DNA of 64,000 bases from Christiangramia portivictoriae DSM 23547 (GTDB taxonomy: Bacteria > Bacteroidota > Bacteroidia > Flavobacteriales > Flavobacteriaceae). Made by a program: the position numbers and the translations under genes. Each line of letters starts with the position of its first letter. The stretch's first letter is position 1. The stretch is taken from assembly GCF_000423045.1 (NCBI RefSeq), contig NZ_KE383971.1, forward strand, positions 382,092 through 446,091, read 5' to 3'. The notes under the pieces were generated by a model. The model saw only the letters and a program-made list of their open reading frames with translations. It searched no databases and was not told the DNA's origin. Shown here piece after piece: positions 3,177 to 7,583 of the stretch.

Positions 3177-3239
3177 TTTTCAGGAAAATCAATTTGGTTT
3201 CGAAAAATAGTTTAAATTCGCAGCCGAAATTAAATGATA

Positions 3240-3506
3240 ATGGCTAGTAAAAGACTGCTTAAAAAAGATGTGAATTATGTAATGGGAGACATCATTGATG
3301 CTGCCTATATTCACCAAATGGCTAACCCGAAGGAGGACAACAAGAAGTCTGAAGCTATCGTGGATGAAGCTATCAGCGATTACGATGAATTGATTAGAGA
3401 GATCAATAGACGTGATGTTGAAAACAAACCAAAACACTTCAAGAAAATCCAGCAGGATCTTGAGAAAAAGGCGAAAGACCTTATCGAGAAACTAAATGCA
3501 CTTTAA
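3240..3506 (+). CDS. Small conserved helical protein of unknown function
   Basis: 88 residues from the ATG at 3240; an ATG two codons earlier at 3234 is also possible. The protein is highly charged and predicted largely alpha-helical, with a lysine-rich C-terminal helix that could form a coiled coil (from about KPKHFKKIQQDLEKK onward). No signal peptide, membrane segment or catalytic motif is visible. It lies 63 bases after the peroxiredoxin and just before tRNA-Thr. A weak promoter-like TAAATTCG is found upstream. I do not recognise a named family. Codon use and charge pattern support a real gene. Confidence 0.7.
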   Translation: MASKRLLKKDVNYVMGDIIDAAYIHQMANPKEDNKKSEAIVDEAISDYDELIREINRRDVENKPKHFKKIQQDLEKKAKDLIEKLNAL

Positions 3507-3512
3507 TAAGAT

Positions 3513-3586
3513 GCCGATGTAGCTCAGCTGGCTAGAGCAGCTGATTTGTAATCAGCAGGTCGTGGGTTCGAGTCCCTCCATCGGCT
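3513..3586 (+). tRNA. tRNA-Thr (anticodon TGT)
   Basis: A complete 74-base cloverleaf. The acceptor stem GCCGATG pairs with CATCGGC at 3579-3585, the D arm contains AGCTCAGCTGGCTAGAGC, the anticodon loop is TTTGTAA with anticodon TGT, and the T arm contains GGTTCGAGTCC. CCA is not encoded. A terminator hairpin follows at 3594. The last 17 bases of this tRNA are repeated 102 bases downstream (see the repeat entry). Confidence 0.96.
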
Positions 3587-3593
3587 CTTAATG

Positions 3594-3623
3594 AAAAGCT
3601 TCTCCGCAAGGAGGGGCTTTTTT
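3594..3623 (+). terminator. Rho-independent terminator of tRNA-Thr
   Basis: A 12-base-pair stem (AAAAGCTTCTCC with GGAGGGGCTTTT, including two G-T pairs) closed by a GCAA tetraloop and followed by a T run. It lies eight bases after the tRNA. Confidence 0.85.
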
Positions 3624-3695
3624 GTTTTGCACATGTTGGGACGAGAAGCCTGTCCTGAGCGAAGTCGAAGGGAGTCCCTCCATCGGCTCTTAATG

Positions 3696-3725
3696 AAAAG
3701 CTTCTCCGCAAGGAGGGGCTTTTTT
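3696..3725 (+). terminator. Duplicate copy of the tRNA-Thr terminator
   Basis: Identical in stem, GCAA loop and T run to the hairpin at 3594-3623. It is the second copy within the 102-base tandem duplication. Confidence 0.8.
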
Positions 3726-3770
3726 GTTTTGCATAAGTTGGGGACTAGAAGCCAATCCTGAGCGAAGTCC

Positions 3771-3912
3771 AAAGCGCTTTTTCGATTTATATGCGAAATT
3801 TCCCTGCTACAATCGAATTTGCACAAACACCTAAGGGTATTTAGTCAATATGCTGATGAACTGCAGTCTGCAATACATAGAATTTACTAGAAATTACCTC
3901 TGTGCTTAACCG
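3771..3912. other. Gene-free spacer between tRNA-Thr repeats and mqo
   Basis: No coding frame or hairpin of note is seen. Readable minus-strand frames across 3524-3826 are only the antisense of the tRNA and its repeats. Confidence 0.5.
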
Positions 3913-5409
3913 CTAATGAAGGGCATCCAGTTCCAGTAATTTGCTGGTACGTTCCTGAACTGCTTTAAAACCTTCCTTGTCTTCACGTACATCCCTGTTC
4001 CAGAAAGGAATCATCTTATCCAATTGCTTTCTGTATTCTTTAGTTCTAATTTTTTCCGGAAATGCTATCTGCAATACTTCCAGCATGATATGAACGGCCG
4101 TAGACGCGCCCGGTGAAGCTCCCAGTAAAGCTGTAATTTTGCCGTCGTTGCTATGTACCACATCGGTACCAAATTCCAGTTTGCCACCCTGCTCATCATC
4201 ACGTTTAATGATTTGTACACGCTGTCCGGCCACCTTCAGTTCCCAGTCTTCCGGCTTTGCATCCTTAAGGAAAACTCTAAGTTCATCTACGCGGTCTTCG
4301 TGATCCATCCGTACCTGGTCTATGAGGTAGGTGGTAAGTGGAAGATTGTGCCAGAATACGCCCCACATGGAAGGAATATTGTCGAACCTGAGAGATTTTG
4401 GTAAATCTAGAATAGAACCCTGTTTCAAGAATTTGGTACTGAAACCTGCGAAGGGGCCAAACAGTAATTCTTTTTTTCCATCGATGAATCTAGAATCCAG
4501 GTGAGGTACAGACATGGGAGGTGCATCCACACCAGCTTTACTGTAAACTTTTGCATCATGCTTCTCAATAATTTCTCGATTAGTACAGGCGAGCCACTGC
4601 CCGCTTACCGGGAATCCACCATACCCGTCTTTCTCAGGTATTTCAACTTTTTGCAGTAGCGGTAAGGCACCACCACCTGTGCCTATGAAAATATGTTCTG
4701 CGTCATAATAGGATTTTTCTCCGGTTTTAAGATCCTTTACAATAGCCGACCATTCATCGGGACCATCTGGATCGATGTCCACAACTTCAGTGTTCCTTAT
4801 AACCGGAACAGAGAAATGATTCTCCAGAAGGTCAAAATATCTTTCTGTGAGAGCGCCAAAATTGACACCGGTTCCCAGCTCCATCCTGGTGGCTGCCATT
4901 TTCTCATCCGGCTCTCGATCTTTCATGATCAGCGGAAACCACTTTTTCATGACCGTCTGGTCATTAGTGTATTCCATTTCTTCAAACATGAATTCAGAAC
5001 TCATACGCTCGAATCGTTTCTTCAGGAATTCAATATTATCTTCCCCTCGTACCCAGGCATGATGCGGAATACTATGGATAAAGCTTTTTGGATCCTTTAG
5101 CAGATTCTGACTCACCAGGTGAGCCCAGAATTGTTTTGATTTTTCAAATTGCTGAAAGGTATCTACAGCTTTTGTAATATCGATCGATCCATCTTCCTGC
5201 TCAGGAGTATAGTTGAGTTCACAGAATGCTGAGTGTCCAGTCCCGGCATTGTTCCATGCTTTTGTACTTTCCTGGGCTATCTTATCTAACCGCTCAAATA
5301 TGATGATCTTCATATCTGGATCGATTAACTTCAGCATGAGGGCAAGGCTTGCGCTCATAATTCCTCCTCCGGCGCAGATGAGGTCATATTCTGTGTTTGT
5401 GTGATGCAT
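3913..5409 (-). CDS. mqo: Malate:quinone oxidoreductase
   Basis: FAD-dependent membrane-associated enzyme that oxidises malate to oxaloacetate and passes electrons to the quinone pool, here presumably menaquinone. From the ATG at 5409 the protein has 498 residues, the usual length. The N-terminal FAD-binding motif is CAGGGIMSASLALML (residues ~12-26), followed by QESTKAWNNAGTGHSA, typical of the family. A frame extends ten codons upstream to 5439, but the start chosen here places the Rossmann motif at the normal distance. It is probably monocistronic, with a terminator of the upstream gene at 5473-5495. No lesions seen. Confidence 0.96.
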   Translation of the reverse strand: MHHTNTEYDLICAGGGIMSASLALMLKLIDPDMKIIIFERLDKIAQESTKAWNNAGTGHSAFCELNYTPEQEDGSIDITKAVDTFQQFEKSKQFWAHLVSQNLLKDPKSFIHSIPHHAWVRGEDNIEFLKKRFERMSSEFMFEEMEYTNDQTVMKKWFPLIMKDREPDEKMAATRMELGTGVNFGALTERYFDLLENHFSVPVIRNTEVVDIDPDGPDEWSAIVKDLKTGEKSYYDAEHIFIGTGGGALPLLQKVEIPEKDGYGGFPVSGQWLACTNREIIEKHDAKVYSKAGVDAPPMSVPHLDSRFIDGKKELLFGPFAGFSTKFLKQGSILDLPKSLRFDNIPSMWGVFWHNLPLTTYLIDQVRMDHEDRVDELRVFLKDAKPEDWELKVAGQRVQIIKRDDEQGGKLEFGTDVVHSNDGKITALLGASPGASTAVHIMLEVLQIAFPEKIRTKEYRKQLDKMIPFWNRDVREDKEGFKAVQERTSKLLELDALH

Positions 5410-5518: not shown

Positions 5519-6265
5519 TCAGGAATTTTCAACTTCCTGAGTCTGCACCTTATTTTCCAGTTTTTCTTCCTTCCTCCGCTCTTTTAAAAAGCTTTTCAAT
5601 TCCTTGCCGTATTTGGATTTTTTGATCTTTGGTTCCAGTGAATTGTATATGGTATCCAGATATTTGATATTGGCATCAAATACTTCTGATAGCGCCAGGT
5701 AAGGTGCTATCTCATGTTGCTTGTTATTCAGTGCAAAATTTACAGTATACAGGTATTTTCTACGTAGAAGCTTATCGTATTTCTGATCAATTTCCATAAG
5801 CTTCTCCTCATCCTGTTCTTTTTCTGCTTCAAAACTTTCCTTGATCAGGTCGAGATTCTGGTCGTTGAACCGGCTAATCATTTTCTTGTATTCAACCAGC
5901 TTTTCCTGGTTTACAGAACCAATCACCTCTGCACTGGTTTCGAACTTTTCAAGTTTTGTATTGATAGTGATTTGCCCTTCGTCTGCAAAGAAATCTATAC
6001 GATCATCATACTGGTTGTTATCTACCTTTTCAAGGTACAAATACATAATCTGCGGACTCTCCAAATAGGTTTCCATTGTGAACTTTGGATCGCCCGTCAC
6101 CTGAACTGAGTCCACATTCACCAATGCGGTATCCTCAATTTTCTGAAGGTACAAAGTTCCCTTTTTAAGACCTTTGATCTCTCCGTTTACAATCAGGTTG
6201 CTTTCTTTTTCTGAACAGGCGCTTACACTGATCAGAATAACTAAAAGAAGCGTTAATTTTTTCAT
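5519..6265 (-). CDS. DUF4369-type lipoprotein
   Basis: 248 residues from the ATG at 6265; a nine-codon upstream extension is possible, but the lipoprotein signal fits this start. The signal peptide ends in a lipobox with Cys17 (SVSAC). The N-terminal part, VNGEIKGLKKGTLYLQKIED, resembles the DUF4369 domain found at the front of many Bacteroidota lipoproteins and thioredoxin-like proteins. The rest is helical and rich in Glu and Lys; no thioredoxin CxxC is present, so it is the short form without a thiol-disulfide domain. It should be anchored in the periplasm or outer membrane. The biochemical role is unknown. Confidence 0.78.
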   Translation of the reverse strand: MKKLTLLLVILISVSACSEKESNLIVNGEIKGLKKGTLYLQKIEDTALVNVDSVQVTGDPKFTMETYLESPQIMYLYLEKVDNNQYDDRIDFFADEGQITINTKLEKFETSAEVIGSVNQEKLVEYKKMISRFNDQNLDLIKESFEAEKEQDEEKLMEIDQKYDKLLRRKYLYTVNFALNNKQHEIAPYLALSEVFDANIKYLDTIYNSLEPKIKKSKYGKELKSFLKERRKEEKLENKVQTQEVENS

Positions 6266-6317: not shown

Positions 6318-7583
6318 CTAACTGCCAGCAGCTAATTGCATTAAAATTGTGCACAAAATAGCGCCATAAGTTCCCACCACGTAACCAAACACTGCCAGTA
6401 GAACACCTACGGTGGCAAGGGATGGATGAAATGCTGCTGCAACCACCGGGGCAGATGCCGCCCCGCCTACGTTGGCCTGACTACCTACCGCGAGGAAAAA
6501 GTATGGAGCTTTGATTAATTTCGCGGTAATAACCAGTACGATCACATGTATAAGAATCCATACCAGGCCTATCGCCAGGAGTCCGGGATTATCGAATACA
6601 GATGTAAGATCCATTTTCATCCCAATGGTGGCGACGAGAATATATATAAAGATGCTACCAATTTTACTGGCGCCGGTACCTTCATATTTTTTGAATTTAG
6701 TAAACGAGAATAGGATCCCCAGGGCAGTTGCGATGGTGATCATCCAGAAAAACTGGGATGAAAAGCTGGATAGTGCACTTTTACTGTCATTAAAAACATC
6801 GAAATTAGCGGTTAGGTATGTAGAAATCCCGTCTGCACCCCAGTGCGCTATCCCAACTGCACCAAAAGCCAGTGCCAGCATGATCATAAAATCTGGTAAC
6901 ATGGGAATGCGGTTGACACTTTCAGCATAGCTGCTAACCTTTACTTTTAGTTCTTCGATAGCAGAATTGTCTGCTTTTAGCCATTGGTCTATAGCTTTAT
7001 TTTTACCAATCCCCATCAGCACAATTGCCATCCAGAGATTCGCCACGATGATATCCACCAGAACCATCCCGCCATACAGATCCTGGTTGTATTCATAAAT
7101 TTCGAGCATCGCAGCCTGGTTGGCCCCACCGCCAATCCAGCTGCCTGCAATTGTGGAAAGACCTCGCCAAACTGCATCCGGTCCAACGCCTCCAACAGTT
7201 TCCGGAGAAATACTGGAAATAAGTAAGATTGCAAGCGGTCCGCCAAGAACGATACCCAGGGTTCCTGCGAAAAACATGATAAGTGCTTTGGGTCCAAGAT
7301 TAAATACAGCTTTAAGGTCAATACTCAAAGTCATTAGCACCAGCGCTGCGGGTAAAAGATACCTGCTGGCTACAAAATAGAGTTGGGAAACTTCATCATC
7401 TATAAGGCCAACCGAGTTAAAGATCGCCGGTATAAGGTAACACATGAGAAGTGCGGGAACGACTTTATAAAATTTATTCCAGAATCCCTCTTTTTGAGAA
7501 GAAGTATAAAATACAAAACCCAGTGCGATCATTAAAAGTCCGAATACGATCGCATCGTTGGTAAATAAGGCAGTTGTCTCCAT
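6318..7583 (-). CDS. DUF819 family integral membrane protein (putative transporter)
   Basis: 421 residues with about ten to twelve hydrophobic segments throughout, a short charged start and a charged middle loop (residues ~200-225). Conserved glycine-rich stretches GSWIGGGANQAA and GSQANVGGAASAPVVAAAF are characteristic of the DUF819 (YjcL-like) family and resemble substrate-binding hairpins of secondary transporters. The substrate is not known. The gene is 52 bases upstream of the DUF4369 lipoprotein on the same strand, so the two may be cotranscribed. Confidence 0.85.
   Translation of the reverse strand: METTALFTNDAIVFGLLMIALGFVFYTSSQKEGFWNKFYKVVPALLMCYLIPAIFNSVGLIDDEVSQLYFVASRYLLPAALVLMTLSIDLKAVFNLGPKALIMFFAGTLGIVLGGPLAILLISSISPETVGGVGPDAVWRGLSTIAGSWIGGGANQAAMLEIYEYNQDLYGGMVLVDIIVANLWMAIVLMGIGKNKAIDQWLKADNSAIEELKVKVSSYAESVNRIPMLPDFMIMLALAFGAVGIAHWGADGISTYLTANFDVFNDSKSALSSFSSQFFWMITIATALGILFSFTKFKKYEGTGASKIGSIFIYILVATIGMKMDLTSVFDNPGLLAIGLVWILIHVIVLVITAKLIKAPYFFLAVGSQANVGGAASAPVVAAAFHPSLATVGVLLAVFGYVVGTYGAILCTILMQLAAGS

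Follow-up and report, generated by a model that had tools for sequence, protein, structure and literature searches.

The short tandem repeat behind the tRNA-Thr gene of the window, i.e. of the 64,000-nucleotide stretch of Christiangramia portivictoriae DSM 23547 analysed here, has counterparts behind many other tRNA genes, and we tentatively read it as a tRNA-tail/hairpin unit, a REP-like palindrome that would lie at a gene 3' end beside a functional copy of that end and would have entered as a cassette. The recurrent order is a tRNA tail, a spacer or terminator, a short left arm, a hairpin core GAGAAGYYTRTCCTGAGCGNAGTCGAAGG and a second tail copy, and the left arm covaries with the start of the tail of the host tRNA. 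Both the description of these units and their recurrence are secure; that they move is our inference. The repeats at E. coli tyrT have hitherto looked like a one-locus curiosity; an equivalent layout behind at least 12 kinds of tRNA, mostly in Flavobacteriaceae and also in candidate phyla, suggests a process that acts repeatedly at the 3' ends of tRNA genes. The origin of the tail repeats is testable through strain comparison, and the tRNA-anchored hairpins provide a tractable case of site choice by REP-like palindromes without coding capacity.

Table 1. Features of the tRNA-Thr locus and its repeat, in positions of the window
Feature	Position	Strand	Basis
tRNA-Thr (anticodon TGT), intact	3513..3587	+	ARAGORN; Rfam RF00005 at 3513-3586, 70.2 bits
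Original tRNA tail, from tRNA position 57 to the 3' end	3570..3587	+	Repeat comparison
First terminator-like stem, GCAA loop, then T run	3593..3622	+	Terminator scan; stem also in fold
Left arm GGGAC, the complement of GTCCC in the tail copy (3674-3678)	3638..3642	+	Covariation across 55 units
Hairpin core GAGAAGCCTGTCCTGAGCGAAGTCGAAGG	3643..3671	+	Core scan
Second tRNA tail copy, its GTCCC being the right arm of the hairpin	3672..3689	+	18/18 identical to 3570-3587
Second terminator-like stem, identical to the first	3695..3724	+	Terminator scan
Second left arm and core, decayed, no tail copy 3' of them	3740..3774	+	Sequence

The direct repeat of the window comprises 3570-3640 and 3672-3742, with 69 of 71 bases identical at a spacing of 102. 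As the preliminary description had reported, the tRNA tail, the terminator with its GCAA loop and a following segment are repeated at this offset with 62 identical bases (3570-3631 and 3672-3733), and this block holds the last 17-18 bases of the tRNA. Its statement that each copy ends with CCTGAGCGAAGTC holds for the word itself, which starts at 3654 and 3757, and not for the offset, which is 103 at this point owing to a one-base indel. The word occurs three times in the whole genome, and a tandem array spread across the genome can thus be set aside. With the second tail starting GA-GTCCC, the left arm GGGAC and its complement GTCCC lie on either side of the core and can pair. Terminator-like sites number four in 421 bases of the locus, against a shuffled mean of 0.5, and the window unit, when folded alone, does no better than its shuffles (z -0.74 as RNA; -0.46 and -0.59 as DNA, either strand). 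At up to three mismatches the core pattern has this one site in the genome, and a tail unit lies behind one of the 32 tRNA genes examined there, which come from 41 tRNA matches; where one Lys and one Glu tRNA of this genome are followed by an exact copy of their tail, that copy is part of a neighbouring tRNA gene. On its 3' side the locus adjoins a malate:quinone oxidoreductase gene. Just 5' of the tRNA-Thr (3234-3506) there is a 90-aa open reading frame without a Pfam match, and the stretch that holds the tRNA is conserved in the genus, while a 100-aa open reading frame on the minus strand (3524-3826), which spans the tRNA and both repeat copies, is very likely spurious.

A scan for the exact core in one genome per species yielded at least 141 cores in at least 118 stretches, the units being carried by at least 12 tRNA kinds. 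Among the matches listed, a same-strand tRNA lies less than 1.5 kb upstream of 116 of the 141 cores, and 107 of these 116 adjoin a copy of their own tRNA's tail (at least 10/13) while nine fail this tail criterion; the 25 cores without a detected tRNA comprise nine near contig edges and 16 others. Inspection by eye shows nothing tRNA-like next to 11 of the 16, and a tRNA-like tail at most of the remaining 14 cores. An even sample of Flavobacteriaceae contains the exact core in 14 of 299 genomes, with 24 of 25 sites behind a tRNA and the 25th in an orphan array with a tRNA-Leu-like tail. The right flank of the core is repeated upstream (score of at least 11) for 133 of 148 tRNA-near cores, as compared to 3 of 148 in the best of three shuffles of the flank, and for 11 of 66 cores without a tRNA, as compared to 1 of 66. 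With 11 of 66, capture of gene ends as a general property of cores away from tRNAs was rejected; by eye, these 11 include three tRNA-Leu tails, several second hairpins and some repeats possibly due to chance, and two of them, L298 and L301, are protein-gene ends. Some tRNA-Leu loci are odd: L100 (about 6470-6650, minus strand) and L102 (about 5700-5890) show a tRNA-Leu-like 3' half and a tail unit without an ARAGORN tRNA, possibly a truncated or displaced tRNA, and at L144 (3500-3700) and L245 tRNA-Leu-like tails and cores form an orphan array, upstream of which no tRNA gene was detected. No Rfam match, for instance to an intron, explains L100, L102 or L144.

Within Christiangramia, formerly Gramella, the core (up to three mismatches) is present in 17 of 24 genomes, and of the 39 sites in the five genomes for which tRNAs were tabulated 32 are behind a tRNA (G000 1/1, G001 9/9, G002 11/11, G005 4/4, G011 7/14). 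Here the layout is also found behind Gly, Asn, Gln, Trp, Met, His, Lys and Ile tRNAs and behind a second tRNA-Thr, and in every unit the copied tail is that of the tRNA which it follows. Arrays of at least two units, which are tandem and whose units look alike within an array, are located behind Gly, Thr, Gln, Trp, Ile and Lys tRNAs. At L064, L065 and L087 of G002, units lie inside the spacer from tRNA-Ile to tRNA-Ala, with one core at one of these loci and two at the others.

Comparison with relatives, which had been proposed as a check, shows that the tRNA-Thr loci of the genus differ. Seven of 21 loci compared have a second tail (up to two mismatches), namely those of G000, G019, G001 (three tails), G005, G011, G009 and G015, and 14 have a single tail, two of these (G003 and G006) with decayed remains; L006 and L024, which stop at contig ends, and L023, which lacks the search word, are outside the 21. 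G019 with two tails and G007 with one form a close pair (branch lengths 0.0044 and 0.047) that is one unit apart, the terminator of G007 being most like the outer copy of G019 (0.90). Likewise, the unit of G005 is absent from its tree neighbour G013. The similarity of spacer 1 to spacer 2 is 0.96 in the window, 0.88 in G019 and 0.94 in G011, a likeness that is compatible with tandem duplication at the locus no less than with cassette entry. Spacer 1 of G005 is nearest to that of G000, and as this likeness (0.81) compares with a background near 0.75, horizontal transfer is not proven.

In 64 of 81 single-unit loci the tail copy matches at 15/15 bases and in 72 at 14/15 or better, while the 25 bases 3' of the tail have a mean identity of 0.72, as compared to 0.62 for random AT-rich DNA. 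This identity falls below 0.65 in 34 of the 81 loci, of which 23 still have a 15/15 tail copy, so that in many loci the shared block ends at about the end of the tRNA; in others, such as the window, it extends through the terminator. The preliminary description had ascribed the perfect identity of the 62 bases to selection or conversion, a thought that survives in another form, for it is the tail that is retained next to random-like DNA in these 23 loci.

The left arm follows the tail. Over 55 aligned units, which were hand-picked from 83 distinct ones mostly by omitting near-repeats and which are related, so that the figures are not probabilities, the five core-adjacent pairs are 86.5% paired against 73.2% after shuffling, and doubly changed cells number 57 against a shuffled mean of 14.7. 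Sliding the arms by 1-3 columns lowers pairing to 33.8-52.7% and the covariation score from 0.539 to 0.10-0.23. In the five-pair analysis, however, neither doubly changed pairs (4 against 3.1, a value reached in 67 of 500 shuffles) nor further pair types (10 against 10.1) outnumber those of the shuffles. For eight pairs the pairing values are 71.8% and 59.4%. A separate shuffle of the 83 units, a set that excludes seven non-tRNA loci, gave 4.02 Watson-Crick pairs of 5 as compared to 3.06, with a maximum of 3.39 in 2000. Past the first five pairs, complementarity is not enriched overall (5.70 against 5.67 shuffled, local alignment, 122 units), although single loci (L093, L102, L119, L144 and L169) reach 7-11 arm pairs. 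Descent of the arm from a full-length inverted tail copy, for which L119 and L102 with 11 pairs each were suggestive, was rejected for want of enrichment over the 122 units.

A similar layout is known from E. coli tyrT/tyrV, where a 19-base tRNA tail AATCCTTCCCCCACCACCA recurs 3' of the gene and four stretches match RtT (RF00391). In three units behind tyrV, GAGAAGCTT follows a left arm GGGGAAGGAT whose complement, ATCCTTCCCC, lies in the tail, which gives a 10-bp arm; GAGAAGCTT fits GAGAAGYYT of the core described here, whereas the fourth unit, between tyrT and tyrV, has GGGGAAGGGTGAGAACCTT instead. A folded E. coli unit closes the 10-bp stem (z -2.95). The window shares with this system a tRNA end that is repeated behind its own gene, each copy being preceded by an element whose arm is complementary to the tail, as in three of the four E. 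coli units. It differs in unit spacing (102 as compared to 178) and in the remainder of the element, and the E. coli repeats involve one tRNA kind as opposed to at least 12 for the exact core. Moreover, rttR is annotated as a non-coding RNA and none is known for the window unit; a comparison of window 3200-4000 with Rfam returned tRNA only and did not reach the gathering score of RtT RNA. The likeness therefore consists of the layout and the common GAGAAGYYT and falls short of proving descent. Some chromosome-sized records in the plasmid collection (H2, H4, H6 and H15) hold tyrT repeats.

CGTC/GTAG palindromes are reported to occur in Bacteroidetes too (PMC3733652), and rtT-like sequences have been linked to BIMEs (PMC2965389). 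The REP/CGTC repeats and the BIMEs of E. coli are like the window core in being short dispersed palindromes with complementary stem changes; they differ from this core subtype in that most copies here are at tRNA tails and the tail forms one arm. No CGTC/TGTC head with a CCA-like end was noticed by eye in the tRNA units, and TGTC is present in some dispersed copies. The searchable part of the open-licence literature yielded no description of tRNA-tail/hairpin units. Integron cassette arrays consist of tandem units that end in an imperfect attC hairpin, with the beginning of the following unit supplying the rest of its outer arm. The likeness to them is one of layout only; a cassette gene of the usual kind would not fit into the 102-base unit, and the arm here varies with the target.

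Exact cores are also found, among the matches listed, in candidate phyla, in records of CPR2 and Shapirobacteria. In the phylum of the latter the core (up to two mismatches) occurs in 4 of 286 genomes at seven places, four of which follow three CCA-bearing tRNA genes (one place each at Ser and Arg, two at Pro) and two a recombinase gene; the seventh (L297, about 1500, G421), with a GAGAGGAC/GTTCTCTC arm, precedes a tRNA-Val and has no tRNA found upstream. The arm has 11 contiguous pairs in the Pro case but no more than 4 and 3 in the Arg and Ser cases, respectively. As CCA is mostly absent from the flavobacterial tRNA genes inspected, its presence in these genes disfavours contamination. In one candidate-phylum family a tyrosine recombinase gene (PF00589) is followed by the hairpin, complete or shortened, and then by a second copy of the gene end, a layout seen in 5 of 14 loci returned (two places in G435, and G421, G631 and G636). 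The two gene ends of these five copies, which are not independent events because G421 and G435 share the downstream copy, differ at 6, 6, 6, 4 and 5 nucleotides (27 in total) and at 0 amino acids over hand-chosen stretches of 18-27 bases, with mismatches in the preceding bases of L307 and an indel after the stretch in L309. The G631 copy lacks the outer arm, and that of G636 has an indel 3' of the compared stretch. Such synonymous-only differences suggest that both ends were coding before they were joined. Integrating elements restore the end of their target gene, and the recombinase gene ends resemble such restoration, or replacement by a diverged allele. Among the 14 loci, the gene end is missing from L315, and L316 represents a second copy of the gene that is partial. 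This copy and the first (L303), both in G435:C28, are about 2.7 kb apart, and the partial one likewise has a hairpin and a recoded end behind it, and at L307 a bare inner hairpin without an outer arm is placed between two recombinase gene ends.

How would such units arise? In the reading that we tentatively prefer, a REP-like palindrome would lie just 3' of a tRNA gene, with a second tRNA 3' end as its right arm. A small DNA cassette made up of tail, spacer or terminator, left arm and hairpin would enter at the gene 3' end, possibly after recognition as a folded single strand; the gene would stay intact, as the cassette would supply a functional end and the displaced old end would be left behind the hairpin, and recombination between tail copies would give rise to tandem arrays or to loss of a unit. 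Entry of a cassette is supported by the gene ends recoded without a residue change, as expected if both had been coding before joining, and by the tRNA-tail linkage, the 15/15 tails, the covarying arms, the arrays and the candidate-phylum cores behind CCA-bearing tRNAs. Against it count the tRNA units being linked to no recombinase or transposase (Y1 searched), the alike spacers of the window, G019 and G011, arms not enriched past five pairs, the null fold of the window unit, and, among the matches listed, the 9/116 tail failures and the 25/141 tRNA-less cores. The Y1 transposase (PF01797) is present in 8 of 24 Christiangramia genomes and was not found in G000, G001 and G005, which all carry units; no core (up to four mismatches) was found in the 2-3.4 kb around 11 Y1 genes of other Christiangramia, and the Y1/RAYT transposase was rejected as mobiliser, as no association was seen over the 24 genomes. 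The alike spacers, including the 62 identical bases of the window, as well as the tandem arrays of alike units, would also be explained by local duplication, with a REP-like hairpin behind the terminator and replication slippage from its right arm to the tail start that duplicates tail, terminator and hairpin, tail-matching arms being those able to slip. We consider this possible but somewhat unlikely, for it leaves unexplained the 34 of 81 single-unit loci without post-tail similarity, 23 of them with 15/15 tails, it requires a pre-existing tail-matching hairpin behind each of at least 12 tRNA kinds, and simple duplication with neutral decay is incompatible with gene ends recoded without a residue change.

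The hairpin and tail copy might instead act as RtT-like functional RNA, whether within the read-through transcript, during tRNA processing or in the form of a small RNA, the arms being kept by selection on RNA pairing. The annotated rttR of E. coli has the same layout, some units (Trp, Pro and Ile) lie 14-32 bases past the tRNA with no terminator by eye, and at pairs 1-3 G-T/T-G (32/180) is commoner than A-C/C-A (4/144; p 1e-5, rows not independent) in a tally that excludes eleven non-tRNA loci. Yet over all five pairs the tally is 44 against 33 (p 0.25), and as the excess is confined to pairs 1-3 it gives partial support for folding of the tRNA-sense strand. Furthermore, pairing is no poorer in units with an upstream T run (4.47/5, 68 units) than in those lacking one (4.20/5, 54 units), the window hairpin is preceded by a terminator-like stem, some copies are behind a protein gene, and the distribution is patchy, with the exact core in 14 of 299 Flavobacteriaceae genomes; we therefore regard an RNA function as unlikely. 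Cassette entry, slippage and RNA function can overlap. The preliminary description, from which the tail-covarying arm and the recurrence behind many tRNAs could not be seen, had proposed insertion and excision at an integrase attachment site or a slipped duplication. The class of event was right, and the tRNA 3' end is the repeated part, whereas the scar of a large element finds no support. Integrative elements with attB at tRNA 3' ends leave direct repeats of the tail, an intact tRNA and a tandem arrangement, and the window is like them in its tail repeat of 17-18 bp, its intact tRNA and its tandem order. However, only 84 bases separate the two tails of the window, which harbour neither an integrase nor cargo genes, the loci inspected through hairpin-anchored searches consist of a short spacer and a hairpin, this short hairpin is present at many loci with its arms varying as the tail does, and neither the exact core in viral contigs nor a match to window 3628-3690 in phage records was found. 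The scar of a conventional integrase-driven genomic island is thus highly improbable. Finally, tail units, E. coli rtT and the recombinase hairpins of the candidate phylum might form one cross-phylum class of gene-tail micro-cassettes, with a recombinase acting in trans that would recognize the folded strand. We think this doubtful; if it were true, the arm would be completed by the tail of the target and re-made for each host gene, and the duplication of tRNA tails would be the footprint of an undescribed structure-guided insertion.

Relatives of the hairpin are also dispersed away from tRNAs, as at L056, L059, L060, L075 and L077 of G015 and G011, where by eye their own outer stems covary (AGGTC/GACCT, AGGCC/GGCCT, AGGCT/AGCCT), and the dispersed core of L286 is flanked on both sides by TTATAA. 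Within the core itself, Y7 and R10 of GAGAAGYYTR (columns 15 and 18 of alignment A1), three positions apart, covary, the combinations being T-A in 101 and C-G in 15 of 116 cases.
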